A stretch of 64,000 bases of DNA from Owenia fusiformis. Taxonomy: Eukaryota; Annelida; Polychaeta; Sabellida; Oweniidae. Below, one piece after another: positions 1 through 41,627 of the stretch. The stretch covers positions 6,653,525 through 6,717,524 of the forward strand of contig CAIIXF020000004.1 in assembly GCA_903813345.2 (NCBI GenBank), given 5' to 3'. Each line of letters opens with the position of its first letter. Position 1 is the first letter of the stretch. Position numbers and translations under genes: made by a program. The notes beneath the pieces were generated by a model that worked only from the letters and a program-made list of their open reading frames with translations, did no database searches and had not been told where the DNA came from.

Positions 1-1456
1 ATGGGAGTTCTAATGTGATATGTACACTTCTACATTGGTTGGCCACTCTTAGATCTGTATGCAGGGATATACCTACAATAACAATACATTGGTTAACTAC
101 ATCTGTTGAACAGCTTTATCAGCTGACCATGGGAGTTCTAATGTGATATGTACTCTTCTACATCGGTTTGTCACTCTTAGGTCTGTATGCAGAGATATAC
201 CTACAATAACAATACATTGGTTAACTACATCAGCTTTATCAGCCGACCATGGAAGTTCTAATGGGATATGTACTCTTCTACATTGGTTGGCCACTCTTAA
301 GTCTGTATGCAGAGATATACCTACAATAACAATACATTGGTTAACTACAGCATACAGCTTTATCAGCTGACCATGGGAGTTCTAATGTGATATGTACTCT
401 TCTACATCGGTTTGTCACTCTTAGGTCTGTATGCAGAGATATACCTACAATAACAATACATTGGTTAACTACATCAGCTTTATCAGCTGACCATGGAAGT
501 TCTAATGTGATATGTACTCTTCTACATTGGTTGGCCACTCTTAAGTCTGTATGCAGAGATATACCTACAATAACAATACATTGGTTAACTACAGCATACA
601 GCTTTATCAGCTGACCATGGAAGTTCTAATGTGATATGTACTCTTCTACATTGGTTGGCCACTCTTAGATCTGTATGCAGGGATATACCTACAATAACAA
701 TACATTGGTTAACTACATCTGTTGAACAGCTTTATCAGCTGACCATGGGAGTTCTAATGTGATATGTACTCTTCTACATCGGTTTGTCACTCTTAGGTCT
801 GTATGCAGAGATATACCTACAATAACAATACATTGGTTAACTACATCAGCTTTATCAGCTGACCATGGAAGTTCTAATGTGATATGTACTCTTCTACATT
901 GGTTGGCCACTCTTAGGTCTGTATGCATGAATATACCTACAATAACAATACATTGGTTAACTACATTGTACAGCTTTGTCAGCTGACCATGGAAGTTCCA
1001 ATGTGATATGTACTCTTCTACATTGGTTGGCCACTCTTAGGTCTGTATGCAGGGATATACCTACAATAACAATACATTGGTTAACTACATTGTACAGCTT
1101 TGTCAGCTGACCATGGAAGTTCCAATGTGATATGTACTCTTCTACATTGGTTGGCCACTCTTAGGTCTGTATGCAGGGATATACCTACAATAACAATACA
1201 TTGGTTAACTACAGCATACAGCTTTATCAGCTGACCACGGGAGTTCTAATGTGATATGTACTCTTCTACATTGGTTGGCCACTCTTAGGTCTGTATGCAG
1301 AGATATACCTACAATAACAATACATTGGTTAACTACAGCATACAGCTTTATCAGCTGACCACGGGAGTTCCAATGTGATATGTACTCTTCTACATTGGTT
1401 GGCCACTCTTAGGTCTGTATGCAGAGATATACCTACAATAACAATACATTGGTTAA
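1..1456 (-). repeat. Tandem array of SBNO exon 17 with splice acceptors (12 copies visible)
   Basis: On the minus strand each unit reads attgttattgtag|GTATATCTC, coding [28 protein letters not shown], then part of the next residues, then a new intron end. First exon bases lie at 1432, 1308, 1184, 1060, 936, 816, 688, 564, 444, 320, 200 and 72, so periods are 120, 124 or 128 bp. The coding part is the SBNO block [20 protein letters not shown]. Two visible copies run on to AVQQ; others break earlier. No visible copy has a splice donor. The array continues past the left edge, where the copy that leads into the rest of the exon should lie. Confidence 0.92.
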
Positions 1457-1861
1457 CTGCATACGATGTTCTGAAGTTGCATATCTTTTGTTCTAAAAAG
1501 TTTAATCAGTGACTTGGACAATCAAGTTTAACACAAACCTGTTTGAGATTAATCAACAGGTTTTTAATTCAGCTGCAAGTTTTTGTAATTTGCACACATT
1601 ATGTAAATGGGTCCTTCTCTTGCTTTAATGTTGTACATTGTAACTTACATATTAATCAAGCTTACTTTTCAATTTGATTCATGACTTTTGAGTGGTCTTA
1701 TCATGGGATTTAGCATAGTTATTGACTAGGAAACTAGTTGAAGTGCAGAAGATGCTGTGAGTTCTGCTATTTTGGAAAAAATCCACCCAGTACTGAAAGA
1801 TGTGGTAGGTTGTCATATTGTAACTTTCTCTGAATAAAAATAGTTATACTAAAATACAGAC

Positions 1862-1922
1862 CTGTGCTTGCTGCATCTGATATTATGGCAACCAGTTTCT
1901 TTCCTGACATGAACAGATTCCT
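1862..1922 (-). CDS. SBNO1: SBNO exon 16
   Basis: Encodes aa 635-655, [20 protein letters not shown], with the next Gly split. It matches the family KQRFMDG..IAIISEAASSG and joins in frame to ISLHTDLR, the start of every copy in the array at the left edge. This is the evidence that the array is the next exon. Confidence 0.93.
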
Positions 1923-4900
1923 CTACAAGCATAAGAGAGACAAATTTATCAAAGCATGTTGCCACTTTTAGAAAATATGGATTATGTGACCATTATTGAC
2001 TGGAATTCCACAATGACTGAGTGATCTTAGGCCACTGAAAATTGATTATGCGTTAAAATCTGGAGTAAGGGCCATCTTTTAAGAGTGTGTGAGGTGAAAA
2101 AAACTCTATTTACTGTATTTCTCTTAGAATAGTACAAATACCATAACACATAAAAAGAAAGTGATCGATTAAGCGACACACCAATTTTAAAGTTTCTAAG
2201 TCATTAGACTTCATTGCAAATACATATAGGGGAGGTGAAGTTGAACATATATTTAACTTGAATGGCCTTTTTCCAGTGTTTGTATGTAAATACGGCTTCA
2301 TTGCCAAGTCAGAGATTATTTTTAAAAATAAACATAAAAAACAAAATGGCCACCATAGTGAGAAAAATGAGAATTATGATCGAGCTCCAATCCAGTTTTG
2401 TTAAAAAATCCAATCCAATCTTGTGTATTCATACCTCTTTTACATTGAGACTTTCTAAGCCTGCAAGATTATCTGAGGCTCTCAACTCATATGCTGGGAC
2501 ATCACCTGGATTGTGTCGTACAATTCTTCCCCTGCGTCCTGTCATCTCTGCCACTGCCTCTGGTCCACCTAATTGGTCAGTGATGTCATCCAATGGACTG
2601 AAATAACACATCATCATGTTTGTGATGTTAATCTTTCATGTTAATCTTCGACAACATCCAGATGCAACTTGTTAAATAAATTCATATGGCTGGAATATTA
2701 TTCTGCTGAATGGTTTCTAATCTCACACTACATTTGAGTTTTTTAATGAATTGTTTATATTGTACAATTGATCTTTATTAACAGTTTGTTTTCTTTTAGC
2801 CAAGTAAAAATATAGTATACTATTGTTATGTATTTGATGAATTCACAAAAAGTTTTTACACTCGGTTTCAAGTGGGTGCAAATGGTGGGTGTGAGCCTAT
2901 TATTAATATCACATGTGGGTGCAATGCCTACTTGCTTTAATACAAGGAAGATCACTGCATTAGTCACACACCTGTTTGGAAGATCTATCTTCTTGGCAAA
3001 ATCAAGCAGCATTGTCTTTGCTGTAACGCTCCAATCATCTTCCTTGACTTCATTCACTGCGGACATCTGGAGGAAAATATTGAGATAATATTAGATAATG
3101 GATTTGCACAAAAGCAACTAAAATAAAGGACCCACGGTCCTGTGCTCACACAGTGTTTTGTGCAGCCAATGATGATTGACTTTATACATGAGAAAGTTCC
3201 CTGAAAATGAGTCCTACTTTTTTCAAATTTTATAGTGTAAACACCAAAAACTGTAATTTCAAGAGCTTTGAAATGTTTAGAGAAATTAAGTTACATATAC
3301 AGCAACTACAACAAGTTATTTGAAAGTTCTACTTCAACAAAGTGTCTAGTATTTACAGAAAATTTGATTTTTTTGACGTCAAAATCAGCAATTTCTCGGA
3401 AACTGGGCGAACTTGACTCAATCCGAATAGCAGTTTTGATTTGTGCAGCCAATGTTGACGGATGGACGGACAGACGCCTGGTCGATCCCATAGGCTCACT
3501 GTGTGAGCCAAAAAGCAGTTGCAATATGAAAAAATTATTCGAAAGAAATGTACATGAGGCAAGAGACATTAAATACAAGGCATAAATATGAACAAGGCAT
3601 AACATGCAAAACGTCACCACATGCCCTTTCTTACAGACACCAAATGTCAAACGCAAACTACCGAACACCATCCAAAAAAAAATTGGAGACTTACAATATG
3701 AGATTTCTTCTGGTGGTTAAAAAAACTCACTGAATAACATACCTAAACAGATTCTTATTGAATTAGAAACAAAAAGTGAGTGAATTAGAAATACAGAATT
3801 AGAAACAACTACATTGTAAATGAAATAGCATTATATTGAATAAGAAACAAATACTTGCTGAACTAAAAATATACTATATTAGAAACAACAGTGAAACCTG
3901 TATATCTGTACACCTCTCTTATGAAAATAACTTTCTTTTTTGGCGCTAATTTTGTTATGTCACATCGACCCCGTGTGACATTCAGATTAGACAGGTTTAC
4001 TGAACTTACTTAATTAAAAACTTCCTGAATTAGAAACAACTTCCTGAATTAGAAAAAACTTACTGAATTAGAAAAAACTTACTGAATTAGAAAAAACTTA
4101 CTGAATTAGAAAAAACTTACTGAATTAGAAACAACTTACTGAATTGGGAACAACAGCTATGACTGTGGGAAAGTGTTGTTCTATAAATCTAGATAAGATT
4201 TCTCGACACAGTGAGATGAAACCTTGGACTGCTCCAACTCCCTTGTTAAGTTCACTCTCCATGCTGGCCTCTCCCGTTGTCTGGAGACCTAAATATATAT
4301 ACTTTTTTAATACAATTAGCCTTGCCCAAGTCGGTATTTTTTTACTTATCTGATCTTGAATTATTACCGCCTTGTACAATCCAATACATCTCCGCTGTTA
4401 TTATGCTGAAATATTCAACGGTTTCGAGATTTCCATAATACCTACGCTATCAGGGGTATCGCGAAACGTTATTGATCGACAGATATCGCGTGGACACAAT
4501 GCGTGACTTCAGGCTGAATGACCAATCAAAACGTTATCAGGTTGAGCTGCATAAACAAAACAAACTTCCCATCTATGACTTGAAATTCAATGATCTGATC
4601 TCGTGTTTCTTTAGAGTTACAATACATTATATAATTAAATGTACATTGGAAGGTAAGAGTCATTAATATAAATTAAATCATGCGATTCAATGTTGATTTA
4701 AAACTGATTTCGCGATGAAAATGCACGAAGACCTAGTCCAATGTAGCGAGTCATGTTGTCGTCGATCGGCGATTGAATCTCAGCCTTCATGTTCAGCGAT
4801 CGTTTGAACGTTTATTGTTGAAATCTTCTCACCTTTGGTGATCCGATCGATCAGAGACATATATATGTCTCTGGATCGATGCCCCGGCATCCACTAAACT

Positions 4901-12182: not shown

Positions 12183-13294
12183 GGCTTAATATGTTATAAA
12201 GAGAAGCAATCCTTTTCATTTGACATTTTATTTTTCAACTATTTTTCTGCTAAGTGATATAAAAGTTCAAAACATCTACAAATATAGTACTCACATATGT
12301 ATGAGGTACTAAAGGATACAATACATATGGCCATTGGATTTAAAATGGGGTCAAAAGAATAACATTTTTTTCACTTTGCTCAATTTGAGCAGAAAAATAC
12401 AATACTTTCAATACAATCTTTTTACCGCTGCTAGACCTGTTACGCTGTTATGATTTTTTGCGGTAAAATTATTGACAGTTGACGGCTCAAACTAATTATT
12501 TAAGAACTTCAAAACTATACAAGGTAGGACAATGAAAATATTTATATAAATCAATCAATATGTTGTGCATAACTGGTAAAATTTTCAAATACATAGCTGA
12601 ATGATTTCAATATGAATTAACTGGAGTTTGATGATAAGTATTACAACCACTTCAAATCCAATATGGCGTCAACGTTATAAGTGGCGCAAAATCAAAGTTT
12701 GCACTAAAATACGTCACAATCTGGCCCTGTGTGATGGCAAACTGCGTAGTATTTTATGCCAGTGCCGGAAAAGTCCGATAGTTGAAATAGTAGACAGAGC
12801 TGCCCAGCCTCTAGTACCATTGAGTATCAAAGTTTTAACCTTACGCCTAGAGATGGTCCTATTTACAGTCACAACATTTACAAAAATAACATCGGGGCAA
12901 GTGCATCTGATTCTGGGCAGTGACGAAGTAGCCCTATCTTCTAAGTTCGATGGAGGACCCCTAGGCTCATCAAATTGAAAACATGTTGGAGGAAAACGAG
13001 TTTTTGTAGAAATCTGAAATTTTACTTCACCGTCGATTTCTTGTTTTGAAATGGATCGATTGCCTTGATATTTCTCAGTGTTACGAGACTTTATTTTATC
13101 TTTTCAAATTGGGCATTAAGAATGCAAGAATATCGTAAAACGTAAAGATATTACCTATAATACGCAAAACAAAATTTTAAGATTTCCGCGCCATTTTGAT
13201 ATTTTTTAGCGATGAAATTACACGTATCACGAAATACGTTTCAATATAAGTTCGTGATTCATCACAAGCTTACATTATTGATTTACCCGGGAAA
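12183..13294. promoter_or_regulatory. Divergent promoter region between SBNO and ACER3-like genes
   Basis: This 1.1-kb stretch separates the two start codons on opposite strands, so both promoters and 5' UTRs must lie here. No TATA box or other element can be assigned by eye. A 348-nt plus-strand open frame (12631-12978) has no recognisable protein similarity and may be 5' UTR or chance. Confidence 0.6.
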
Positions 13295-13385
13295 ATGGCA
13301 CCGAACGGCTACTGGGGTGAGAGGACCGCCACAATCGACTGGTGCGAAGAGAACTATGAAGTAAATTACTACATTGCAGAGTTTT
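13295..13385 (+). CDS. ACER3: ACER3-like exon 1
   Basis: Encodes aa 1-30, MAPNGYWGERTATIDWCEEN then YEVNYYIAEF. It includes the calcium-site motif DWCEEN and Glu29. The donor is TTTT|gtaagt. Confidence 0.96.
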
Positions 13386-16300
13386 GTAAGTATTTAGTAT
13401 GTATTCTACATTCTGTGCGAGTTTTGGGAGTCTGTTATAACTCAGACACTCTAAACATCTGATCTAAAGTTTGGTAAAAAATATTCACCGGGCGATAACA
13501 TGTTTGTTTACATTCTCAACAGAAAATTCTAGAAAATATATGTTTCATCTGTTGAATTCGATGATTCGCATTCAATATTTAGCTTACTGAGCTCTGCGTT
13601 CATCTGCATTTGATAGTATCGGCCTAGAACATGGTAACTTGTTTTGTGTCACAATCTCTTCATTTGCGAAACAGTTGCGGATGAGTGCATATTGAACGCC
13701 ATCCATTCAGGGATTCTAATGAGCACATAATAAAACTGTATATATTAGTACAAATATATAAGTGATTTTAGACTTTATGAAAATATTAGCACAAGTTAGA
13801 GGCACAAGTGTAAGCACAGGCGAAAAACAAGCTCCACAAGACCATTTAGCGGCATTATAGCGCATAAAAGGATGCGATTACAAACAAACATTCTGTAGCC
13901 CATTTCACTGTTTTATTGCGTCAGTAAAACCTTAAAAATAAGAAATCAAAAGATCAATGCAATAATATATGGAAAAATGTATGCCTATTGTACATACATG
14001 TAGATTTACTCCCGTCGAGAGCTACTTAGATTTTGAAAGTATAGCTCTCTATCGCTAGGATCAACAGCTTAAGAATCCTGACTTCAAAGAAAATTTCAGG
14101 GAATTCAGCTGACTCATGTTGCACATTATATACCTGAAAATGTATCCTACATCGCCATCTTTCATTCAGCTCAACTATAGAACGTCTCACTGCCCTATGT
14201 ATCGATCAGGACTTCATTTTATTGGTCGTGTCAAAAGTTTTGGCCAGGTATATTCAATATGGCGGCTTGACGTTTCCCAAGTTGTGCATGCGTTGATAGT
14301 ATTTCCGTTTAACCGCCATATTGGAAATGGGTATCGAACAAAAAACGATTAGAACTCCTGATCGCCATAGAAGCACATCCGCGATCCTACATGCACGGGG
14401 AAAGTAGACACATATGAGCCCATATGTAGGCTACAGTTTGAGACAAACAGCAAGCCGTTGACTGGCGCTGATCAAATTAAGATGTTACAATTCTTCAGCT
14501 GGGAGATCCTCACGATGGAGAGCTATACTTTCAAAATCTAACATGGTAGCTCTCGACGTGAGTAAATGTAGATGACATTTGTTTATTTGTCTTTGATTGC
14601 TTCTACTTTGGCTAATAAAGTGTGTGGCCTCTTAAATTTTGATGCTTTTCTGCCATAGTATTTTCAAAAGGATTAGCACGCTGACATTTTTTAGATTACA
14701 AGAGGGCACAGGCTTATTGCACAAAAATTAAATAATCTGAAATATACAAATGTCATTCATGTATAATATGAATATACTTTTCCATATATTATTGCACAAT
14801 GGTCTCCTAATTTCTCAATTTTGGTGTTCTACTGACGCAATAAAAAATAAAGTAAACAAATGTAAATGTGTTTGAATTCACATTTAGCATAATTAAACTT
14901 TGTTAAAGGAGGAGGTAAATTAGCGCAACCGATTTTGGACAGTCATGATCATATGTTGGATTTTGGCCATTTTCTGAGGATTTAAACAATTGCATATGTT
15001 AGGCCAATGCATTACCTCCAGGAAAATCACTTCTAGAGATGATAAAATAATTTCGAATTTGAGACAGGGTAGATGCAAACAACCCACCAACATGTTTTTT
15101 TCCTGAAATGTTTTCCTAATTTTCGACCCCTTTCATCCCTGCTTTTTTAATTTTTCTTGCATGAATATGTTGTGTTTTGACACATAGTTAACCACTTTAA
15201 AGGAATACATGATTCCTTCAGGGGTTTTAAAGATACCCATTACGGGTGACCAAACTCAGCTGAAAGCAATGATTTTCCCCATGGGAAAATAACGTGGGGA
15301 ATATTGTTTTCCACTTTATCTAAAAGGAATCATTTATGACAAAAAATATTCAGAAAACCACTTTATGACGGATTCTCCAAATTGCATTATTGAACTTAAA
15401 GGAAGAATAAAATACAAACTGATTTAGGCTTGCCCAAATCAAACTCCATACTGACTGTGGTGGATGACCATTTTGTCAGCCTTTTATACAGATATATAAA
15501 CAAAACATTTACAAATTTGGTTAATGAAAATGATGAATGGAAATCTGCACTAAAGGCTAATGATCAGATGATACAGACTTACTTTGAGCAGTATAACGTT
15601 TATAAGGCTAAAGTTAGCACTACATGTAGTTTGTGACCTGAGAAATGCCTCTAGTGTCATCATAAATTAGAATACACAAATGGTTGTCATGACATTAAAG
15701 GTAAACAAACATGTAAACACAAATGTCAGTCTGTTCTCCTTTGATTTTTTCATCAAAGACATGCAAAGTTTCCATATTCATAAATGTACATTAAAAATAC
15801 ATGACTGAATTTCATGACTGAATGGTAAATGCAAGCCTATTCTCTAAATAACTAAAATGCAATACCTGCCTGAGAGAAATGCAATGCTTTAGAGATAAAA
15901 CACAATGCCTCGGAGATTACTGCACAAACACAATAAGCAGTTTAGAGGTACAATTTTGAGAATATCTGTTTATCCACAAATACATGTACATAGATAAAAT
16001 AATATTTTGAAAGGGACATAATAAGTACTAGTCTACTTAGAGTGTTGCACTTACAACAGTTCTAGTTTTTCACTGCAATTTATTTAATAGAGATGGCCCT
16101 GTGCCAAATGCAATCTATCTCTATAGCAACTGTTTGTTGGTGCAGGTTGAGCTAGATCTTTAAATCAGCTTTCCCCCAAAGCCTATAGTTCAGTACATAA
16201 TCTGTTCCATTATATAAACTTACAGAAGTAATATAGAAGTAATTAGTTGCCATTATTCAAACATTTTATTTGCATTTAATCCAAATTGATATTTGTAAAT

Positions 16301-19300
16301 CAGCACTTTTATTAGCTGAAATACTTTCAATGGTAATAATTGTAAGAGTTTGAAATGAATGTAATTGAATTATTTAGGTTTGAATTTTAGTTTATTTATG
16401 TCGTCCTATGTAACTCAACTTTCTTTTTAAGGTATTTCCACGTGTTAAGAAATGTTAATGGCTTCTTGGTCCTATTTTTTTAATTTCTGGGAATAACCTT
16501 GAATTAGAAAAGGAGGTACACTGTTATATCAGCTTTAGAGATGTAGCTGTTTGTAATATCTCTTTTGATAAAAAACGTGAGATTATCACTTGAGAAAATC
16601 TCAATGTCATTATCTCCAAGTAACTGCATGATTTTTGTCACATTTCCACAGTGTGCACTTGCTCCTTTGCAAATACCAGTAAAATTTCCATTTTATTTTA
16701 TAGTTATAGTCATTTTATGACTTTTTGCACATTCGAAATATATGTGTTTTAAGCTTCTAATGACACACCCATGTCAAATGGAAGTAATTAAGAGTATTTT
16801 CTTTCTGAAAGATGATTCTAATTTACTTCAAATTTTGAAGTGCTATCAGTGATCTCCACAGGCTTTTTTCTCAAGTGGGTGCAAAACTCTCATTTCAGAC
16901 CAAAATGTGCCCATTTTCATGATTTTTCTCATTTTCAAGTGGGTGCAAATGGATTTTCAGCCGGGTACATGCCTATTTTTAAAATCTTAGGTGGGTGCTC
17001 GCCCACTTGTTTTAATGCTGGGGAGATCACCGGCTATTATTCTTGAAGCCTTGTTATTTTACTAATTACAGTCCTTACCACAAATTTTAAGAGGCAAACA
17101 TTATGATTCTATCACCTATACTATATATTATGATCCATACTGTCTATATATTTTATTTCAGGGAACACAATTAGTAATGTGTCTTTGATTCTACCACCCA
17201 TACCATATAATATTATATTTTTCAGGGAACACAATCAGCAATGTGTCTTTGATTCTACCACCCATAAAATATAATATTATTTTTCAGGGAACACAATCAG
17301 CAATGTGTCTTTGATTCTACCACCCATACAATATAATATTATTTTTCAGGTAACACAATCAGCAATGTGTCTTTGATTCTACCACCCATACAATATAATA
17401 TTATTTTTCAGGGAACACAATCAGCAATGTGTCTTTGATTCTACCACCCATACAATATAATATTATTTTTCAGGTAACACAATCAGTAATGTGTCTTTGA
17501 TTCTACCACCCATATGATATAATATTATTTTTCAGGGAACACAATCAGCAATGTGTCTTTGATTCTACCACCCATACTATATTATATATTTCAGGGAACA
17601 CAATCAGTAATGTATCTTTGATTCTACCACCCATACTATATTATATTAAATTTCAGGGAACACAACCAGTAGTGTATCTATGATTCTACCACCCATACTA
17701 TATAGTAGTAATACCATATACATTTTTTTTCAGGGAACACAATCAGCAATGTATCTATGATTTTACCACCCATACTATATAACATTATATTTCAGGGAAC
17801 ACAATCAGCAATGTGTCTATGATTCTACCACCCATACTACATTATATTATATTTCAGGGAACACAATCAGCAATGTGTCTATGATTCTACCACCCATACT
17901 ACATTATATTATATTTCAGGGAACACAATCAGCAATGTGTCTATGATTCTACCACCCATACTACATTATATTATATTTCAGGGAACACAATCAGCAATGT
18001 GTCCATGATTCTACCACCCATACTATATAATATTATATTTCAGGGAACACAATCAGCAATGTATCTATGATTCTACCACCCATACCATTTAATATTATAT
18101 TTCAGGGAACACAATCAGCAATGTATCTATGATTCTACCACCCATACTATATTATATTATATTTCAGGGAACACAATCAGCAATGTATCTATGATTCTAC
18201 CACCCATAATGGGTGCTGTGTTTGCCTGGTTGGATGGGCTGGAGGCTAAAATCTTCTGGAGTCATATATCTCTACTATGTAAGTATTACAATTCTTCATT
18301 TTAATGCTAAAATGCTCTGGAGTAGTAATAGATGGGAACGGGAAGTGGTTATGAATGAGGGCCTACTAACATATCTTATGTCACCACCACAAATGGTGAT
18401 ATATTAGTCTCTCAACATTTTTGTGGACAGTTTTAGGCAGTCAGCATTTAGCATTCATTGGATGGCTTTCTGCATTTGTTGTTCAGTGGTTGGTGTTTTG
18501 TGTTTGTAACAAATAGCATGTGGTGCCATTTTGCTCATCAGTCTTGTTGGCAGGCCCGTAGCCAGGGGGGTTCAATGGGTTTGAGCGAACCCTCCCCCCT
18601 GGCCAGTTTTTCGCCATTCTGAACATTTTTGAAGTGATTTTGGCCATTTTTGGACAAAAATTGTCAAAAGTGAACCCCCCTTGAAATTGCCAAAAAGTGA
18701 GCCCCCTTTGTAAATCCTGGCTATGGGCCTGCTTGTTGGTATAGTTGTATTAGGGAATTGCTTCATGTTTAAATTATTGTATGATAGATGGGTTATCATT
18801 GTAATTGTTAATGAGTACATTTAACAAGGAACATTTTCGACCATATTTGCTCGTGTAACTCTTAAACCATCAAAAAATATTTTGATTCAATATGAACATT
18901 AATAACACTCTACCCCCATTTTGGGATCCAAAACAATATCAAACATAAGAAAAAGAGGAACCTTTAGATGAGTCAGAATATGTTGCCCTTAGTTAATTGC
19001 TATGTTAAATCCCCATTCCCTTTCCTCTTTATTAATTTAACTTCCCTCAAAAATATTAACATTTTGCCCTGCTATGATATTCTCAAAGGGAATGCATAAG
19101 ATTGATGTTGGAAGTGAAACAGACAGACAGATATGAATTTTTAATGGCTGTCTGTCTCTCTCCTTTAGGTTTCATTATGTGAATAACATAGTTTAATGTG
19201 GGTAATCTTTTTACTTAATTGCTGTGTATCCAATCTAATTACCAATATATCATTGTATCTGACAAATGTATAAGTTAGGATGAAGTACTGTACAAGTGTG

Positions 19301-22300
19301 CATGCATCACTTTATATTTAGGATGTAGTACTGTACAAGTGTGCATGCAGTACTGTATAAGTATGCATGCAGTGCTATAGAAGTATATGCATGCAGTACT
19401 GAAGTATTGTATAAGTGAAGCATGAAGTATCGTATAAGTATGCATGCAGTATTGTATAAATATATGCATGCAGTACTGTATAAGTCTGCATGTAGTACAG
19501 TACAAAGGTGCTTGTAATACTGTGTAAATGTGCATGCAGTACTGTATAAGTATGCATGCAGTGCTATAGAAGTATATGCATGCAGTACTGAAGTATCGTA
19601 TAAGTGAAGCATGAAGTATTGTATAAGTATGCATGCAGTATTGTATAAATACATGCATGCAATACTGCATAAGTCTGCATGTAGTACAGTACAAAGGTGC
19701 TTATAATACTGTATAAATGTGCATGCAGTACTGTATAAATGTGCATGCAGTACTGAATAAGTATGCATGCAGTATTGTACAGGTGTTCAAGTAGTACTGT
19801 ATAAAGATGCACATAGTACTGTATAAACTTGTGTTAAATATCATATCTGGAAGAGATTGATTCTTCAAGCCCCTTAAATTGATGGACAAAGTTAAATGTT
19901 TAAAAGAGTCATTGTAGAAAGCATATCAATGTTTCTTTTGCAATCTTATTTTCTAAAAAATAATTCAAGTATAAAAATTATCAAAGATTTAAGATTCATT
20001 AATGTGCAAATCCATTAGAATTAGAGAATGTCCCATTTTAAAAGCTATGCAGATCGCCTTGAAATCCAAGGATTTTTCAGAACTGTTTGACTTTTACCTC
20101 TATATATAGGTTAGAAAATAATTAATCATCTCCTTCTTTTCAATGAGAAATAATTTATATGATTTTAGATTTACTTCATTGAATATAGTAAAATATGTGC
20201 AGTGTGAGCATACCATTAAGAGCATAACATGTGAACACATTTTCCTAAATGTAATTTGCAAGTATCTAATCTTAGAGTACCTCAGTACATGCATATACAG
20301 GGTGGGCCAAAAAAACACCACTTTTTTTCAAAATGCTATAACTTTTTTAATTTTTGATAATAAATCATAATTTGCATACCAAATGAATCTTGAGGTTGTT
20401 ATCTAGCCATTGATCATGAATTATACACTTTTACTTGAATAAAATATGTCACCAGCGTCTCACTTAAACATGTGGTGTGCCATGAGAAATAAGCATAATT
20501 TGCAAAATGTTCCTGAACTGATACGGCCTGATGATCGCCAAGCTAATAGCCCTGATGCAAATCCCAGTGAGTATAGGGTATGGGAAGGTCTCCAGGAGAT
20601 TGTATGAAGGCACCCAATCTAAAAAATTGCTCAACTAAAGCAGGCAATTAAGACAGGTTGAAAAAAACTAAGCTAACATTTAATTGATACTGCAATATCA
20701 GCAAGGCGACTAGAACTGAAATTTATCATCAATTAGGTTGGCGGACCAATTGAACTCCCCTTTTAGATCAAATATAATCCAAGTTGAAGGACTTGTTACA
20801 TTATATTATTACTAAGAACCCTTGGCACTATATAACTGCAAACTTTGGGGTATGTGACATACTGTTATATTGTCTCCAACTTTTTTGTGGATAGCAGTCG
20901 GTGTTTGGCAGTCAGTGTTTGGCAGTTAGTGTTTGGCATTCAGTGTCTGTAACAAATGTTAATGCCTTGTTTATTATCAACGGTTAATGTCATTGTTACA
21001 CTTCAAGTTTTGACATTATGTGATGTTCATACCTTGTTTTATATTGTTTATAGGTGTTGGTTTGGGATCCTGGTGTTTTCATATGACCCTTCTGTACAGT
21101 GGGCAGGTAAGTCAAATACTTAACATTTAAGTTTTAACCTAAGTTAAATGAATTAGAATGGGAAAATACTTAACATTAAGTTTTAACCTAAGTTAAATGA
21201 ATTAGAATGGGAAAATACTTAACATTAAAGTTTTAACCTAAGATAAATGAATTAGAATGGGAAAATACTTAACATTAAGTTTTTACCTAAGTTAAATGAA
21301 TTAGAATGGGAAAATACTTAACATTAAGTTTTAACCTAAGTTAAATGAATTAGAATGGGAAAATACTTAACATTAAGTTTTAACCTAAGTTAAATGAATT
21401 AGAATGGGAAAATACTTAACATTAAGTTTTAACCTAAGTTAAATGAATTAGAATGGGAAAATACTTAACATTAAGTTTTTACCTAAGTTAAATGAATTAG
21501 AATGGGAAAATACTTAACATTAAGTTTTAACCTAAGTTAAATGAATTAGAATGGGAAAATACTTAACATTAAAGTTTTAACCTAAGATAAATGAATTAGA
21601 ATGGGAAAATACTTAACATTAAGTTTTAACCTAAGTTAAATGAATTAGAATGGGAAAATACTTAACATTAAAGTTTTAACCTAAGATAAATGAATTAGAA
21701 TGGGAAAATACTTAACATTAAGTTTTAACCTAAGTTAAATGAATTAGAATGGGGAAATACTTAACATTAAAGTTTTAACCTAAGATAAATGAATTAGAAT
21801 GGGAAAATACTTAACATTAAAGTTTTAACCTAAGATAAATGAATTAGAATGGGAAAATACTTAACATTAAAGTTTTAACCTAAGATAAATGAATTAGAAT
21901 GGGGAAATACTGCAGTGTTGAAAGCATTTTCTCAAAGATGATACCAATATTTCCCTTATGTACAATCATAGATTTTATGTCACCACCCCATGTGGTGAGT
22001 GGTGACATTTTGTTATTATCCCAACGAACGAAGTTCGGTAGGGATATAGTGAAGCGTGAAGCCCTCCGTCCGTCAGTCCGTCAGTCCGTCATTCTAAACC
22101 AAAGTAATAAATATTATTGTTTGACATTTTGGTAGTATATTCGCAACATCTATCTATTTCACATATGTTCCGTGTTTTTTATCCTGACCCCAGGGGCCGT
22201 GTATGGGGGGTCAGGAAAACAGAAATTTTCACTGATTTTTAGATCTTTCTGAAGTATAGCTTTATTATACTCAAATGAAAGGCAATTAATAGTAGATTGC

Positions 22301-25300: not shown

Positions 25301-28300
25301 CTTGTTTTCTTGTTCTTGAAATTTGTAAACATAATAGGAGAACAGTGTTCCTGGTTCATAGTGTCTGCCTATTTGATGGTGTGATCTCGTTCACGTCCTG
25401 TGCCTTGTTCATAATTTTTCTCATTTTCAAGTGGGTGCAAATGGATTTTCAGATGGGTGCAGACTTGTTTTTTAAATCTCATGTGGGTGCTTGCTTTTAT
25501 GCTGGGGAGATCACTGCAAATATAGAACAGATAAATCCTACAACTGAAAGTGATTTATATAGCAGTCCACTTTGGTATGTTGCTTGAAGAGAAGAGGGGA
25601 AATGTGAATTATAAATTACTCTTTATTGTAGCTTTGAAGGGTTTAGTAGGTTCTGGTATGTTTAAAAGGTTTACTTATGAGTGTAATTTATATGCTGGTA
25701 AATTGTGTCTAGAGTGCACATCATTTCATACAATTATAAAGGGACCACCTCAGTATCATTTTCGAACCCATAAACCTGCATATACAATGTAGTACTTGGT
25801 ACATGGATATCTGATGATGCACTACCTAACACCCACTATGATTTTTATGTCACCACCAAAAGTGGTGACATATTGTTATGGTCTCCGTTTTTTTTATGTC
25901 ACCACCAAAAGTGGTGACATATTGTTATGGTCTCCGTTTTTTTTGCGACGGCGGTTGGCGTCCGGCGTCCGGCGGTTGGTGGTTGGCGTCCGGCGTCTGT
26001 AACAATTTCTTACAACTTCCTATAACTTAACAAACACTGTTTAGACTGACTTCAATTTTTTTCTAAATCATCTACATGTTCTCAGAAGTTCAAATCTGAC
26101 TTTAGATTTGACATTTGACCTTCAATGACCTTCTCAAGGTCAAAAAGGTCTTTTTTCAACTTGCTTCACATTGACTAAATTTTTTTTCAAAATCATCTAC
26201 ATGTTCTCAGAAATTCAAATCTGACTTTAGATTTGACTTTAGATTTGACATTTGACCTTCAAATCTGACTTTAGATTTGACATTTGACCTTCAATGACCT
26301 TCTCAAGGTCAAAAAAGGTCAAAAAGGTCTGTTTTCAACTTGCTTCAAATTGACTAATTTTTTTTTCAAAATCATCTATGTGTTCTCAGAAATTCAAATC
26401 TGACTTTAGATTTGACTTAAGATTTGACATTTGACCTTCAATGACCTTCTCAAAATCAAAAAAGGTCAAAAAGGTCTTTTTTCAACTTGCTTCAAATTGA
26501 CTAAATTTTTTTTTCAAAATCATCTACATGTTCTCAGAAATTCAAATCTGACTTTAGATTTGACATTTGACCTTCAATGACCTTCTCAAGGTCAAAAAAG
26601 GTCAAAAAGGTCTGTTTTCAACTTGCTTCAAATTGACTAAAATTTTTTTTAAAAATCATCTACGTGTTCTCAGAAATTCAAATCTGACTTTAGATTTGAC
26701 TTAAGATTTGACATTTGACCTTCAATGACCTTCTCAAAGTCAAAAAAGGTCAAAAAGGTCTTTTTTCAAATTGCTTCTAATTGACTAAATTTTTTTTTCA
26801 AAATCATCTACATGTTCTCAGAAATTCAAATCTGACTTTAGATTTGACATTTGACCTTCAATGATCTTCTCAATGTCAAAAAAGGTCAAAAAGGTCTTTT
26901 TTCATCTTGCTTCAAATTGACTAAATTTTTTTTTCAAAATCATCTACATGTTCTCAGAAATTCAAATATGACTTTAGTTTTGACTTTAGATTTGACATTT
27001 GACCTTCAATGTCCTTCTCAAGGTCAAAAAAGGTCAAAAAGGTCTTTTTTCAACTTGCTTCAAATTGACTAATTTTTTTTTCAAAATCATCTACATGTTC
27101 TCAGAAATTCAAATTTGACGTTTACAAGTTCTCAGAAGTTCAAATCTGACTTTAGATTTGACCTTTGACCTTCAATGACCTTCTCAAGGTCAAAAAGGTC
27201 TTTTTTCAACTTGCTTCAAATTGACTAATTCTTTTTTCAAAATCATCTACATGTTCTCAGAAGTTCAAATCTGACTTTAGATTTGACATTTGACCTTCAA
27301 TGACCTTTTCAAGGTCAAAAAGGTCTTTTTTCAACTTGCTTCAAATTTACTTAATTTTTTTTTTCAAAATCATCTACATGTTCTCAGAAGTTCAAATCTG
27401 ACTTTACATTTGACCTTCAATGACCTTCTCAATGTCAAAAAAAGTCAAAGAGGTATTTTTTCAACTTGCTTCAAATTGAAGAATTTTTTTTTCAAAATCA
27501 TCTACATGTTTTAAGAAGTTCAAATCAAACCTTCTTAAGGTCAAAAGGTATTTTCCAACTTTTTTTAAATTGACCAAATTATTTTAGGTGGTGACATTTT
27601 GTCATGTTAATGCCTTGTTCAATTTTGATAATGATGGTAATTTTTGAGATCTTGGCATTTCAAGGGGAGTTTGAATTTAACAATTATAATGGTACAGAAT
27701 TTAGCCAAAAAGCCCATCAAATGTATTATAACTCCTATATTTTTCATTGATGGCACAGAATAAAGCCAAAAAGCCCACCAAGTATATTTTATTGAATGCA
27801 TGTTCAGTGTATATTTCATTGATGTTTTATATTTTCTAGTTGCTTGACGAGCTTCCAATGATCTGGGGAACATCAACTCTTATATATGCAATGTAAGTAA
27901 ATTTGCCTCATGTGTTTAGATTTGCTTCACCTAGCATAAATTTGCCTCACTTATTTCAACATGCCTCAAATATTTGAATTTGCCTCACCCATTTTTCTTA
28001 TTCATAACATTTGCCTCATCAAAATTGTACACAATATTATTTAAACTGAATTATGAAAATGAGGTCCAGTGGTTTGTATTATATTCACTTTAGCTTAAAG
28101 CCTCACCCATTTCAAGTTGCCTCACCTATTTGAATTTGCCTCACCTATTTCAAGTTGTCTCACCCATTCCATGTTGCCTCACCCATTTCATGTTGCCTCA
28201 CCTATTTCAAGTTGCCCCACCTATTTCAAGTAGCCTCACCTATTTCAAGTTGCCTCACCTATTTCAAGTTGTCTCACCTATTTCAAGTTGCCTCACCGAT

Positions 28301-31300
28301 TTCAAGTTGCCTCACCTATTTCAAGTTACCCCACCTATTTCAAGTTGCCTCACCTATTTCAAGTTGCCTCAATCATTTCAAGTTGCCTCACCTATTTCAA
28401 GTTGCCTCACCCATTTCAAGTTGTCTCACCTTTTTCAAGTTGCCTCACCCATTTCAAGTTGCCTCATCTATTTCAAGTTGCCTCAATCATTTCAAGTTGC
28501 CTCACCTATTTCAAGTTGCCTCACCCATTTAAAGTTGTCTCACCTATTTCAAGTTGCCTCACCCATTTCAAGTTGCCTCACCCATTTCAACTTGCCTCAC
28601 CTATTTCAAGATGCCTCACCTATTTCAAGTTGCCTCACCTATTTCAAGATGCCTCACCTATTTCAAGTTGCCTCACCTATTTCAAGATGCCTCACCTATT
28701 TCAAGCTGCCTCACCTATTTCAAGTTGTCTCACCTATTTCAAGATGCCTCACCTATTTCAAGTTGCCTCACCTATTTCAAGATGCCTCACCTATTTCAAG
28801 TTGCCTCACCTATTTCAAGTTGCCTCACCTATTTCAAGTTGCCTCACCCATTTAAAGTTGTCTCACCTATTTCAAGTTGCCTCACCCATTTCAAGTTGCC
28901 TCATCTATTTCAAGTTGCCTCAATCATTTCAAGTTGCCTCACCTATTTCAAGTTGCCTCACCCATTTCAAGTTTTCTCACCCATTTCAAGTTGACTCACA
29001 TATTTCAAGTTGCCTCAATCATTTCAAGTTGCCTCACCTATTTCAAGTTGCCTCACCCATTTCAAGTTAAATCACCCATTTCAAGTTGACTCACCTATTT
29101 CAAGTTACCTCACCAATTTCAAGTTGCCTCACTATTACATAGCTATGCCCTTGGCATATGTACATGTTCTTATTCATTTGCTTATTTGATTATAACTTAA
29201 GTCATATGTCAAGCTCCTGTGTGCCCCTCCCCCTTCCCTTAAACATTACAATGATTAAACCACTGGAGTTAAAACTGCTTGAGAGCATTTCAAGGGATGG
29301 TGTTGGCTGTGGATCTCAGAATGCTAGAGTTAACATTAAGAGATTTTTAGATGATTTTAATATGTCTTTTTTTTACTTGTATTCACAGTGTATTGTATTA
29401 TTAGACTCAAAATGTCCCCAAGGTTATTATTTTATAAAGGAAAATTAAGAAAAGCTTTCCTGAAAAAAACACACAAAAAACTATTCATTATTACACTTTA
29501 ATAAAATCACCAGGAAATAATACTATTCATAACTTATAATTCTTTGTTATCAAAAGTGGTGTTCCTTCATTATGGTGATTTCTGAGTACCATATATTTCA
29601 ACATTTCAATATAAGGATACACAAATACAGAATCTTTCCTTGATGAACTTCATTCAAGGAAGGAATTTTTATGATTTCCTCCTATTACTCACACAATAAA
29701 GCCTAAATAGATAGTGTTAGTCTTTGTACCCCTCTCTCCTCACCCTTGTGTAGAAGTTGTGTAAAAAATGTGTGATTAATTAATGACCAAAATTGTGTAA
29801 GACACAAATTACATGAGGTACATGTATGATTTGTATAAGCATTCTTAAAGAGGTAATTAGCGACTAATTAGTGACAGACCCCTTCCTCCAATTAGAAACT
29901 ATGGTCAGATTTTAACAAATATCTTATTTTCATAATTCACAAAATATGGTTTATTATAACTATAGTACTGTATAGTAAGTATTAATATAATATTAATGCT
30001 TGATATTAAAAAGATAAAGAGTCCAAAGGTCTATTATAATGAACGAATTGAACAAATCAGCTGTATATACAGGGTACGTAGCTACCCCGAATCCTAGCTT
30101 CTGACTTCTACAAAATATTTTAGTTTTAAGATCTTATGAAAGTAAAAGTAAAAAAAGAAGAAACGAACAGCCCAGGCTGATGAAAATTCCCGATCATTAT
30201 AGGGACCAATACGTTAATATTGTTTGAAATTATGACAAAGAATGAACATGAATGTTAAATAATGCCTAAATTGCCCAATTTATGTGCGGAACAAGACTTT
30301 GGGCTCTAGAATTTTTTGGGCCTCAGTTTTTCTCTGGGCACACTAACGAAGAGGGGGGGGGAGTAGCCAGGGTCCTACCCTCCCCCTTATCCATCACTGA
30401 ATGTACAGTAAAATAAGACCCTTTTCTCCCCCTATTCTGGTATGTTGTACTGTCAATTTGATATAATTTAGCTTAGTATACATACTCTGAATATATGATA
30501 TACATTCATACCACCTTCTGGATAATTGTATTTACTTGTATTTTGATGATACATCATGTTGCTAGGTTATTACAGTATTACATGCATGGCTCCTACCTAA
30601 TAAGGGCTCCCAATGGGGAAACATAAATGACTTAATGATATTCAGTTTTATACCACCTTCTTCATTTTACCCCACTCTCAGCAGGCCTGTAGCCAGGATC
30701 TGCCAAGGGGGGGGGGGTCACTTTTGACAACTTTGGCCCAGATATGGCTAAAATCACTTGAGAAGTGGTCAAAATGCTGAAAAACTGCATGATTCTGAAA
30801 GAATTTTTGGCCAGGGGGGGTTCGCAGGGTTAGGGCTACGGGCCTGCTCAGTGCCAATCTCTTCCTTGCAGGGAGGATATAATCAGAGGGAGAGGGGAAC
30901 AGGAGAGGGGGGAGGGGGGTGGGCAGGGTCCTGGTATAACAAAACAGAAACTGGCATTTTGATACAGTCCAAAAACAGGGACAGCGAAAAGTTGATTAAC
31001 TCAGTCAATCTTGCGACCCCGCGTGCAGAGTCTAGTTAAACTACAGGACGAAGCTCTCTTTTAAGAAGTGAAGTCAAGCGAATGCAAAGGATACAATCTT
31101 GCATATTCTGCCTTGAGATTTCAGAATTCTTTAGTTCATTCAATGTTGATTTTGTCATGAAAGTTTGATGAAAATTTGCCTAGTATGGATTCAAAAACTG
31201 CAGTATCTTACAAAAACATGCTTCAAGTGGGCACTTCAAATGTGCCTACCCTGTATATCAGTTTAGGTTTTGATAAATGTGACTAGAGTGATCTGGTTGT

Positions 31301-34300: not shown

Positions 34301-37300
34301 CCTTAATATACACTGTAGTTAGTATTTCTGGGGGACTTGCTCCCCCTCTTGCATCTTGCACTTGCATAACCCCCTCCCCCCTCCAAAAAAAAAAAGTGAT
34401 TTTCTCAAATTCTTTAATTGACTCATACACTTTGAAAGTGCCGAGAAAGCACCAAATAGCGTCGTAAAATTGTAAAATTTTCTAGGGGGAGTGGGCCACC
34501 CCTCACACCCCAAACAAAACAATGGAAAAGTTCTGAATTTGTTTTATGTATTGTCTCAGACACTTTTAAATTACCCAGACATCATCAAATAGCTCCTTGA
34601 TAACGTTAATGATTCCGGAAGTCTAACACTTACTCGCCCTCTGGCATCCCCACTCCACCTCCCCCTCTGGCAGCCCCACCCCCCTTAACACCCCCCCCCC
34701 AAAAAAAATTGAGATTTTTCAAAATTTCTTATTGACTCATACCCTTTAGAAGTGCCCATAAAGCACCAAATAGCATCTAAAAATTGTAAAATTTTCTTGG
34801 GAAATAGGCACAGACACTTTTAAAGTGCCCAAACTTCATCGAATAGCACCTTGCTATTGTAAATTTTGATATGGGGGACAAACACTTGCTCCCCCTCTGG
34901 CACCCCAGCCCCACCTCTCCCTCTGGCATCCCTCCCCCCCCTTTGACACCCCCAAAATTTGAAAAAAATTGTGATTGTTTTTAAATGTTTTTATTGACTA
35001 ATACACTTTAAAAGTGCCTAGAAGCACAAAAATATCATCTTTAAATTGTGAAATTTTCTAGGAGAGTTAGCCACCCCTCACATCCCCCACAAAACAAAAG
35101 AAAATATTCTGAATTTCATGTAATGTCTCAGACATTTTTTAAGTGCCCAGACATCATTAAATAGCACCTTGATATGGTCAATGTTTCTGGCGGACAACCC
35201 CTTGCTCCCCTACTGGCACCCCACCCCACTTCACACTCTCATCCTCTTTGACACCCCCAAAAGAATTTGAAAAAAAAATCACATTTTTCTTATTGACTCA
35301 TAACGCACAGGTGTACCAGATGGTTGCAAATTCGCTCCAAATACAACCAAATTTCAAAATTTTCCTGGGGGAGAACCCCCAGACCCCCCTGAATGCTCGT
35401 TTTTTTATTCACTCAACTCTTATTCCCGTGGTGGTGGCGTACTACTTAGAAACTTACACTTTGAAAGTGCCCAGAAAGCACCAAATAGCATCTCAAAACT
35501 GTAAAATTTTCTAGGGGGAGTGGACCACTCCTCACACCCCCACAAAACAATTGGAAAAGTGTCTTACGGGCCTGAATGCCATCTATTTAATAAATGATTT
35601 GCTTTTTATTTCCAGATCTATATATTTAATAAAAACCCAGTATTTCATGAGGTAAGTGAAGCATTTGCATTTCAACTTTAGTCTTACAAATAATATGGAC
35701 CCTCCCCCTAACTACCCATTTCCAGAGGCAATCAGTCAGAATCTGGGTTAAGTTAGAATAAGGAGGGGGGGTGAAGGGGATAGTTGAGCAACTGTTTGGA
35801 TTTTCCATAATAAGCGGGAAAACACACCCGAACAGAATATAATGAAAAAAAATATAATTGATTTTGGCAGGGGGGTAAAGTACAAGTGTTATAAAAGAAC
35901 TTTTATTACTCTTACAATTACACTTTAGGTGTAGGTCAACATGAATAAGAATTGTATTATGTTTGAAAACAATATTGGACACTGGTCCCTAAAGAAAACC
36001 ATTTTTATTTTAAGCTAAAACTGAAAATGAAGTCCAAATTGTAGTATAATACCATATGGTTAAAATTTTGTGAGGACATATTTTCATGGTGTCCAACTTT
36101 TTTGTGACAGCGTTCAGTCGTTGGTGTTTGGCATCTTTAACAAATGGCAGGTGGTGTATGTCAATAACTTGTCTGTTTTAGCTTTGCTCTTTAATTTTAA
36201 GTTTCTTGTTATATTCCAGGCTGCCTATGGTTTAATGGTGTTCACCCTTATCTATCTCTCTAGAAGAATTATGAGGTAAGAATGTATGAATTATGACTAA
36301 ACTGAATTGATTTTCCTTGCAAGCCCATTTCTCTCAATATTGTATAACCATATTTATACTATCCATATTTAGCAAACAATAGTATAATAACATCATTTCG
36401 AAGGGCAAAATAGTGAAATATTGGACAGAGGGAAAATTGTTGGCCGTTAATGCATTATTTGCCCGCCACTATGACGTCACAAAATAAATGCCTTTTAAAC
36501 TAGCTAGCTATAGCACTAATACCCCTAGAACAGGCCCAGCAAGGTGGTAATAATGGGAAATGTTAAATGGAAAAATATGGATAATATAAAAATGTTAATA
36601 GCTACCCATCGTGATAGCCGCGTCCCCTTTGTCTTTATCCTTCCAAACGGCAGATAAGAGGGGCTCTGGCATGCCAGAATGATAGCTACCATATCATTTG
36701 AGAAATGGGCTCGCAAAAATGTATTTTTAAGCTGTTCTTTATAATGGAGCTCTCTTATAATGGGCTACATCAAGGTAGAATCGCATCGTCATCAATGTAC
36801 CTTTACAACTTTTTTCAGTATTTGTAACCAAAAAGAAGTCACACTTTGATTATAAACGGCCTGATTCATTGATGAAATAGCGCCTCCTAAGATTAGAGAA
36901 ATGAAATTGGATTTGAAAAACATGTCTGAAGCATTGAGATCTTACCCAGGAACATGGTCTGCATTATCTTACTGATTTCAAAGAATTGCATGGTTGTACA
37001 TGTATTTGTTTGTGCATATGTTTTCTAAAAAATAATTTGTATTGCTTTTCAGATTAACCAATGGTAACAAGTCATGGTTAATTTTTGCCAGGCTTGTCAT
37101 CTATGCAACTGGATTGATTTGTGCTCTGGAACCTTACCACATGCCTATTTATTTTTCAGATTAACCAATGGTAGCAAGTCATGATTAATTTTCGCCAGGC
37201 TTGTCATCTATGCAACTGGATTTGTGCTCTTGAACCTTACCACATGCCTATTTATTTTTCAGATTAACCAATGGTAACAAGTCATGGTTATGCTTTGCAA

Positions 37301-40300
37301 GACTTGTAATCTATGCAACTGGATTTGTTCTCTGGAACCTTACCACATGCCTATTTATTTTTCAGATTAACCAATGGTAGCAAGTCATGGTTATGCTTTG
37401 CAAGACTTGTAATCTATGCAACTGGATTTGTTCTCTGGAACCTTACCACATGCCTATTTATTTTTCAGATTAACAAATGGTAGCAAGTCATGGTTATGCT
37501 TTGCAAGACTTGTAATCTATGCAACTGGATTTGTTCTCTGGAACCTTACCACATGCCTATTTATTTTTCAGATTAACCAATGGTAGCAAGTCATGGTTAT
37601 GCTTTGCAAGACTTGTAATCTATGCAACTGGATTTGTGCTCTGGAACCTTACCACATGCCTATTTGTTTTTCAGATTAACCAATGGTAGCAAGTCATGGT
37701 TATGCTTTGCTAGTCATGTCATCAATGCAACTGGATTTGTGCTATGGAACATAACCACATGCCTATTTACTTTTCAGATTAACCAATGGTAGCAAGTCAT
37801 GGTTCTGCTTTGCCAGTCATGTCATCTATTCAACTGGATTTGTGCTATGGAACCTTACCACATGCCTATTTATTTTTCAGATTAACCAATGGTAGCAAGT
37901 CATGGTTATGCTTTGCAAGACTTGTCATCTATGCAACTGGATTTATGCTTTAGAACCTAACCACATGCCTATTTATTTTTCAGATTAACCAATGGTAGCA
38001 AGTCATGGTTATGCTTTGCTAGTCTTGTCATCTATGCAACTGGATTTATGCTTTAGAACCTAACCACATGCCTATTTATTTTTCAGATTAACCAATGGTA
38101 GCAAGTCATGGTTATGCTTCGCAAGTCTTGTCATCTATGCAACTGGATTTATGCTTTAGAACCTAACCACATGCCTATTTATTTTTCAGATTAACCAATG
38201 GTAGCAAGTCATGGTTATGCTTCTCCAGTCTTGTCATTTATGCAACCGGATTTGTGCTCTAGAACCTAACCACATGCCTATTTATATTTCAGATTAACCA
38301 ATGGTAGCAAGTCATGGTTATGCTTCTCCAGTCTTGTCATTTATGCAACCGGATTTGTCCTCTGGAATCTTACCACATGCCTATTTATTTTTCAGATTAA
38401 CCAATGGTAGCAAGTCATGGTTATGCTTTGCCAGTCATGTCATCTATGCAACTGGATTTGTGCTTTTGAACCTTACCACATGCCTATTTATTTTTCAGAT
38501 TAACCAATGGTAGCAAATCATGGTTATGCTTCGCTAGTCTTTTCATCTATGCAACTGGATTTGTGCTCTGGAACCTTACCACATGCCTATTTTCTTTTCA
38601 AATTAACCAATGGTAGCAAGTCATGATTATGCTTTGCTAGACTTGTCATCTATGCAACTGGATTTATGCCATGGAACCTTACCACATGCCTATTTACTTT
38701 TCAGAGTAACCAATGGTAGCAAGTCATGGTTATGCTTCGCTAGTCTTGTCATCTATGCAACTGGATTTGTGCTCTGGAATCTTGACCACATGTTCTGTGA
38801 TAAAGTGATGTAAGCATTATAGAGATACCTTTAACTAATCTTTTAAAGTAAACTTTCACCTGTGAAAACTCTTCTCGAAATTCAACCTTTTCAAGAAATG
38901 TTTAAAACAACCCCAACCCATCACGATCAATAATATTTGAATGTTAAGAAAATATTTTTAATCTTTATTTAATTGTAGAATCAGAATTTTATTGCAATAT
39001 AATATTTTTGACAAACTTAATTGTCCATATACAAATATGATTTACATCTAATTACACATCATTGCTCTTCATAAGTTTTTATGTTACACATAGGTCAGTA
39101 CGCAATAGTGTACCACATGGTCTGCGTCCTGTGACGCAGCTACACGCATGGTGGCATCTGTTCGCTGGACTGGGAACTCATACAAGCATCGTCTTCTTGT
39201 GAGTTTTGGAAATTTCTCATTTTTTAAAAATATGTGTTTTTCTCGCATTTTTTTAGTTGTTTATTTATTTATTTTTTTCATTAGTGACAGTCCTGATAAC
39301 CCACAATAAAGGTTTTCAAGAATTCCCCACAAATTTTGTTGTACTATATATATTTTTTATAGTATTGACAACTTTTTGAAATAAAGTTGCTCTTATTGCC
39401 ATATGAAATAAAAGTTTTAAAGTATTACCTAAGAAAATAAAATGTTCTTGGTTACCGTGTCTCGTAACACCTTTTATTCACAAGGCTGGATTATAGGGTA
39501 TACTTAGTTGGTCACACTTAATTTTGATCCACGATATAGTTCTCAAGACAATGTACTAATACCTTTGACATACATTAAAGTATAGGTAATAGGATAAATT
39601 GCCTACAACTGAGTAAATGTTTTACAGCATCCTGTTTATCAAGAGAAAATAGTGCAATAGCCTTATAATGGTATAACCCCTATAAACCATGTTAATGTAT
39701 CTTACTTGCAGCACTCACTCCAGATACAGGTGTTTGAAGAGAGACCTACACTTAAAGGTAAAAAGCTTAAATTAACCCAGAATCAAACCAAACCAAATAT
39801 TGATGTATTTACTCGCATGCTCAGTTGATACAAGTACATCAAGAAATTAGAAAAGGGAACTACAGTAAAAACTGTCTAAGTGGATCACCTTTGATACCAA
39901 ATGGTTTTCCACATGGGAGGTGTTCCCCTTACAGAAAGTGTTTCATTTAAAATTAAGTCAGTTGGTATTAGGACTCTGAAGTGTCCAACTAACACTGAGG
40001 TGCTCCACTTCTAGAGGAGTTCCACTTAAGGGTTTTATTGTGCCAGTCTTAGACAATCATGATCATGTTGAATACATTTTAGAAAAATGTGAAAAAAATA
40101 AAGAAAAAGCTTGATTGCAAAAAAGATGAGAGATTACTAAAGTTGCCATGTTATCTTATTCATGTACATGTAGATGCTGAAAATGTTAACTGATTCAGAA
40201 GAAAGAATAACTGGCTCTGGGTCTATTGGTCTCGTGAGCAGGGCTTATGTTGCTAATAAATACATTGACCAACCTCAATTGGCAATGATTCTGTCTATGC

Positions 40301-41423: not shown

Positions 41424-41627
41424 CAGGCCCGTAGCTAGAATTTGCCAAGGGGGGGTTCAGTTTTCAAAAATTTCCAGGGGGGGTTCACATTTGACAATTT
41501 TGGCCCAAATATGGCTAAAATCACTTGAGAAGTACTAAAGATTGTGAAAAACTGCATGATTTTGAAAGAATTTTTGGCCAGGGGGGGTTCGCCCGAACCC
41601 TGCGAACCCCCCCTGGCTACGGGCCTG
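41424..41627. mobile_element. MITE-like element with CAGGCCCGTAGC ends (copy 3)
   Basis: Ends CAGGCCCGTAGC and GCTACGGGCCTG. GGTCA on both flanks (5-bp target duplication). The interior has GGGGGGTTCGCC and its inverted copy GCGAACCCCCC. Confidence 0.78.

Follow-up and report, generated by a model that had tools for sequence, protein, structure and literature searches.

The window analysed here is a 64,000-nucleotide stretch of the genome of the annelid Owenia fusiformis (contig CAIIXF020000004.1, positions 6,653,525 to 6,717,524), the left part of which contains two neighbouring genes, SBNO on the reverse strand and ACER on the forward strand. In both genes minisatellite arrays lie across exon–intron junctions. 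Three of these are found at acceptors (SBNO exon 17, ACER exon 2 and ACER exon 8) and one at a donor (SBNO exon 13), where the exon numbers 8, 13 and 17 are labels carried over from the original prediction. Tandem Repeats Finder, run on the window, recovered all four named arrays, and the copies were then read one by one. As had been predicted, each unit consists of a splice signal together with adjoining coding sequence. The program returned 53 rows for the window (overlapping rows counted), including many arrays that lie off the junctions.

The ACER exon 2 acceptor array (17135..18208, + strand) is formed from 17.1 copies of a 62 bp unit containing approximately 21 nt of intron, ending in TTTCAG, and the first 41 nt of the exon. 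The AG is present in 17/17 copies, and only the last, with its exon start at 18168, continues into the exon (18168..18278, + strand). Upstream, ACER exon 1 (13295..13385, + strand) matches the Pfam family Ceramidase and is followed at 13386 by an ordinary GT donor (GTAAGT), on which ground a GC-AG first intron was rejected. Downstream, the coding part of exon 3 used in the joined protein (21054..21104, + strand) has a donor within a few bases of its end. Joining exons 1, 2 and 3 via the acceptor of the last copy gives a protein that aligns without gaps to human alkaline ceramidase 3 (6g7o) over residues 4–82 (E 6e-32). An array of 16 copies of a 49 bp unit (21114..21911, + strand; Tandem Repeats Finder) begins just downstream of the exon 3 donor, a few bases into the intron, and does not have the splice site in its unit. 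The copies on the intron side of a junction array will subsequently be referred to as decoys. Two of those in ACER exon 2, at 17350 and 17474, read CAG/GTAAC, an acceptor followed by a donor-like GT that resembles a recursive splice site.

The ACER exon 8 acceptor array (37046..38792, + strand) has a 103 bp unit present in 16.9 copies, with approximately 16 nt derived from the intron and 87 nt from the exon. It holds 17 copies, 16 of which contain the AG. By eye, all 16 intron-side copies are one base short of the true exon, and an in-frame stop is found in six of them. The reading frame is kept only in the last copy, the exon start of which lies at 38705; this coding copy, as read from the sequence, extends over 38705..38809 (+ strand) and is followed by a GTAAGC donor at 38810.

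The SBNO exon 17 acceptor array (1..1458, − strand) contains 11.8 copies of a 124 bp unit within the window, each composed of approximately 33 nt of the intron 3′ end and 91 nt of the exon 5′ part. The array is not confined to the window, as it extends 271 bases beyond the left edge to about position −270 (2730–3000 of L003, the adjoining 3 kb). It is there that the genuine exon copy is located, and this copy alone runs into conserved exon, matching Helicase_C_4. With L003 included there are 14 junction copies, spaced 120–128 bases apart so that there is no space for an overlooked one; the 14 acceptors were located with a pattern that already contains AG. Pfam AAA_34 is matched by two SBNO exons, above the cut-off in one case and below it in the other. 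To the left of the array, two segments of L003 (~660–1090 and 2210–2600) by eye resemble an inverted repeat. The SBNO exon 13 donor array (4016..4145, − strand) is much shorter in its unit (TCA/GTAAGTT; 19 bp in 6.8 copies), which comprises the 19 bases around the GTAAGT donor. The true exon end lies at approximately 4140. Of the 7 copies that the pattern caught, 5 keep the GT.

The claim that each array presents many, mostly intact splice signals held up well: AG or GT is retained in 88 of the 93 junction copies caught by patterns, a count that takes in 6 of the 14 SBNO exon 17 copies and leaves out L146, an array from the genome sample described below. By eye the decoy splice sites appear no poorer than the true one. 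With the dinucleotides so widely kept, splice-site choice looks positional and would most simply operate through exon definition. Because only the exon-adjacent copy continues into coding sequence, as judged from frame and homology, this copy is taken as the coding one and the remaining copies appear to be intron. Use of a decoy is unlikely to yield a useful protein, since the unit length is a multiple of three in only 2 of the 16 listed arrays and the ACER exon 8 decoys carry the missing base and the stops described above. These features leave unsupported the proposal that the arrays act as splicing regulators, in which repeated acceptors or donors recruit parts of the spliceosome or give regulated alternative isoforms and are kept by selection. 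The retained AG and GT fit such a role, whereas the unit lengths and the damaged ACER exon 8 decoys argue against it. A relative of the ceramidase gene on contig C10 has just two arrays that exceed 100 bases, which also speaks against it; this is a weak test, as the relative seems to lack the same introns and is a poor guide to conservation. Overall we regard selected function, regulation included, as improbable.

The frequency of such arrays elsewhere was estimated from the genome assembly (498,259,871 bases in 525 contigs, the large contigs C1–C12 being 31.9–62.2 Mb) using a sample of 202 exons outside the window, or 404 edges, delimited by matches to hidden Markov models (HMMs). The sample comprises 44 myosin exons and 158 kinase/SNF2 exons. 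Of the 92 myosin head matches, 30 supplied loci; a first round covered 59 matches and the placement test described below 47, which yielded 44 exons spread over 25 loci that do not overlap. For the protein kinase domain (PF00069) 95 of 144 matches were used, the 49 omitted being 48 longer than 400 bases and a shorter one on C9, and for SNF2 (PF00176) 67 of 73, the 6 omitted again exceeding 400 bases. Of the 162 matches thus used, four proved to be array copies, leaving the 158 exons in 114 stretches. By an automatic rule, 12 edge-spanning arrays (10 kinase/SNF2 and 2 myosin) were counted on the 404 edges, or approximately 3%.

Many short arrays were flagged near edges, and the junction arrays listed here are those judged by eye to span them. 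Acceptor arrays are found in L020, L057, L059, L060, L062, L067, L080 and L146, and donor arrays in L014 (with few exon bases in the unit), L078, L080, L128 and L135, so that both the 5′ and the 3′ boundaries of exons are affected and L080 carries one array of each type. The array in L057 is separated by 8 bases from the HMM match and is therefore not counted by the automatic rule. In an SNF2 gene on C2 the junction array was visible in the domain search itself, as five tandem matches. L060 and L062 are related genes approximately 29 kb apart with a common 119-base unit, and are thus not independent; within this one assembly the unit is present in at least 3.6 copies in L060 and 2.1 in L062. 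By eye, the 119 bp unit carries the short stretch ATACTCAA(C/T)TG at each of its ends, intronic and exonic, and this may be the microhomology that gave rise to the initial duplication. A muscle myosin heavy chain locus (L169, C9:37986009-37994334) contains 12 tandem exon-like matches to a single segment of the motor domain (~25–84 in the model), two of which have identical printed upstream sequence; they are perhaps a large cluster of alternative exons. The muscle myosin head of this genome scores highest against 1dfk and similar entries (597.7 bits; scallop), ahead of 3i5f (583.5; squid) and Myosin-6 entries (552.8). Matches to the Fox domain occur on nine of the 12 large contigs, four in a run on C8, three on C10 and two paired on C3. 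Published work on O. fusiformis gives 12 chromosome-scale scaffolds totalling 505.8 Mb (PMC9977687), and Fox genes on nine of 12 chromosomes with foxQ2 duplicated in tandem on two (PMC9539403); the contig and chromosome numbers do not correspond. Judged from these comparisons, amphioxus is an unlikely source and an oweniid annelid a likely one.

The junction arrays sit on seven of the 12 large contigs (C1, C2, C4, C5, C10, C11 and C12) and in unrelated genes. This spread bears on the possibility of an assembly artefact, in which reads were falsely collapsed or expanded. Tandem arrays are indeed hard to assemble, but here many substitutions separate the copies, the flanks are intact, the pattern recurs across contigs and two related genes have a unit in common. 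An artefact is accordingly considered extremely unlikely.

Whether arrays favour junctions was assessed by placing each array at random within its own stretch, with main limits of a period of at least 30 and a score of at least 120. In the kinase/SNF2 stretches 10 of 16 arrays span an edge (10.8 expected), in the myosin loci 2 of 17 (5.05 expected), and in the window to position 41,500 together with L003 3 of 12 (3.9 expected). Summed over the three sets, 15 of 45 arrays lie on exon edges against an expectation of 19.8. A looser limit gives 10/30 (11.9 expected), 2/24 (5.3) and 3/18 (4.6), respectively. Minisatellites are dense in this genome, and junctions are struck about as often as, or less than, chance. 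As spanning arrays are no commoner than under random placement, nothing in the sampled exons points to a junction-seeking process; the original prediction of a mechanism that amplifies junctions had named such a comparison, made genome-wide, as its refutation, and on this sample the prediction is not supported.

The accompanying premise, that ordinary minisatellites avoid exon edges, fared no better, since array coverage hardly falls at the sampled edges. At the main limits, arrays at acceptors cover 4.65% of the last 20 intron nt, 3.8% of the first 20 exon nt and 2.7% of positions 50–75 bases in; the corresponding values at donors are 2.5, 2.5 and 1.4%. Overall, arrays cover 3.7% of the kinase/SNF2 stretches, 8.5% of the myosin loci, 16.4% of the window and 16% of 20 background stretches of 2.4 kb, which sit at round-number positions and in which a few long arrays supply most of the total. 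No array lies wholly within an exon in the kinase/SNF2 and myosin sets at the limits of the placement test, as a raw count; at lower limits one short array is found inside an exon (L133, 850–875). A bias in the position of the junction within the unit looked possible by eye, on numbers too small to judge. A replication- or recombination-based process aimed at splice junctions, such as RNA-templated or R-loop-linked amplification, could draw on the number of cases in unrelated genes and on how little intron (~16–33 nt, by eye) the units of the three acceptor arrays in the window contain. Against it stand the lack of enrichment across all three placement tests, the many arrays that the same genes hold off their junctions, and the fact that acceptors and donors are both hit. 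Such targeting is thus very improbable, and the lack of a junction excess in the sample also counts against arrays kept for a function.

The decoys also differ among themselves in a way that is informative about their origin. Intron-side copies were compared with each other at the sites of their exon part in eight acceptor arrays; L067 (ambiguous frame), the donor arrays, L062, L146 and one L020 decoy (beyond the 25% mismatch limit) were left out. The variants fall at codon positions 1, 2 and 3 in the ratio 15/12/40 (67 in all; chi-square P 2.5e-5), and 33 of the 67 are nonsynonymous (N) where approximately 47–50 would be expected. Inclusion of L067 gives 34 N to 34 synonymous (S) in all. Variant alleles per site amount to 0.082 at positions 1–2, 0.242 at position 3 and 0.293 in the intron part. 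Variants present in several copies divide into 12 N:21 S, while singletons (21 N:13 S) are near neutral (P 0.10 against an assumed 73% N). The signature stems from ACER exon 2, ACER exon 8, SBNO exon 17 and L059. In ACER exon 2, divergence from the true exon also increases with distance from it (rho 0.76, P 0.0007).

An excess at third positions is not what a copy that never coded should show, and the singletons are near neutral; on the simplest account, the functional exon would have given rise to decoys repeatedly, at various times, and these would then lose constraint in the intron. Coding-like variation in the exonic parts of decoys would also be expected if the arrays were functional, but the near-neutral singletons are at odds with this. 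The decoy coding signature is the single new point worth testing properly across the whole genome.

Arrays of this kind have precedents, contrary to the original prediction that no such system had been described. The amphioxus 'mirages' were reportedly first described in an Adh3 paper and are treated in two others. According to these, mirages occur in amphioxus Adh3 and in the globins BflGb6 and BflGb9 (PMC3087553), and the second paper adds PGBD5 and cites troponin C (PMC3902484). As here, they are minisatellite-like tandem duplications across an exon–intron boundary, at 5′ or 3′ sites in several genes; many, not all, copies keep AG/GT, and copies at the cluster boundary escape homogenization (PMC3087553; PMC3902484). 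The amphioxus data suggest that regular splicing is left undisturbed (PMC3087553). The present arrays differ in their lophotrochozoan host, in their rate among the sampled edges, in the decoy coding signature and in reaching 17 copies in two arrays, where up to 7 are given for globin and PGBD5. No comparable edge rate or coding signature was seen in the portions of these papers available (PMC3087553, PMC3902484).

Variable internal tandem repeats at exon–intron boundaries are also described in human segmental duplications, with units averaging 30 bp and 27 intron modifications (PMC2812944). These too are minisatellites at exon–intron boundaries, but about half are coding and most of the intron modifications are also represented by a transcript retaining the repeat, whereas the extra copies in O. 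fusiformis appear purely intronic. Similarly, in the Rogers model of intron gain, as outlined in PMC3087553, a tandem duplication with AG/GT proto-splice sites gives a duplicated segment that holds splice signals and a repeat that can turn into intron. Here, in contrast, existing introns are enlarged, as opposed to a demonstrated new intron. No report of junction-spanning minisatellites in annelids or molluscs was found in the open-licence literature, which cannot establish absence. The class is thus already known, and what looks new is the apparent host group and the notable frequency.

Taken together, these observations make it likely that the arrays are mirages: minisatellites seeded from local DNA that chanced to straddle a splice junction, growing neutrally and tolerated as splicing uses the exon-proximal site. 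The process would begin with a tandem duplication of the intron end and the exon start, or its mirror image at a donor, which is the composition seen in the units of the arrays read. Splicing would then stay on the copy beside the exon body, the only one to enter conserved exon, leaving the mRNA unchanged and the extra copies intronic. The array would subsequently expand and contract by ordinary minisatellite mutation, and exon-derived copies would be pushed into the intron and decay, as the variation by codon position and the distance-linked divergence in one array suggest. Placement would not be directed to junctions, in line with the sampled arrays, which span edges no more often than randomly placed ones.

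Several points weigh against this explanation. The placement tests use the edges of HMM matches in place of annotated exon edges, with an approximate exon list for the window and short flanks (330 bases) on the kinase/SNF2 stretches. That splicing uses the exon-proximal site is deduced from frame and homology. In the codon test the numbers are small, variants within one array share ancestry and are not fully independent, and the contrast between singleton and multi-copy variants is borderline (Fisher P 0.051). No coding signature is seen in L020 (4 N:1 S), L057 (2:1) or L080 (1:0), each with few variants. The trend with distance is marginal in ACER exon 8 (rho 0.49, P 0.054) and absent in SBNO exon 17 (rho −0.43, P 0.14) and L059 (rho −0.21, 4 decoys). 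In SBNO exon 17 the intron part is nearly invariant (0.04 variants per site), and its third positions are therefore not simply 'like intron'. It is also possible that the coding signature means that some decoys are translated.

A bolder idea, which we hold to be unlikely, is that a junction array serves as a living archive of its exon. With every round of growth the edge of the functional exon would be copied into the intron, whereby decoys record past exon alleles, and unequal exchange could return decoy sequence to the exon; in a stronger form, some decoys would enter mRNA and be under selection as alternative starts of the exon. If this were true, unequal exchange with decoys would make junction arrays local engines of exon change. 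The finding of these arrays extends an amphioxus curiosity to a lophotrochozoan genome, at about 3% of sampled exon edges. It also provides a natural experiment on splice-site choice, in which as many as 17 near-identical acceptors follow one another and differ obviously in position alone. The suggested repeated seeding of intronic repeats from coding sequence bears on intron growth and on the origin of alternative exons, and gene finders may mis-annotate the sites of junction arrays.

The remainder of the window adds little to these features. An Rfam search of it gave no matches, and a COX1 search aimed at mitochondrial DNA likewise gave none. An array of 54.6 copies of a 19 bp unit (28100–29136) contains open frames of up to 278 amino acids, which probably arise by chance. 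Finally, positions 58375–58701 (+ strand) contain part of a short-chain dehydrogenase gene (Pfam adh_short).

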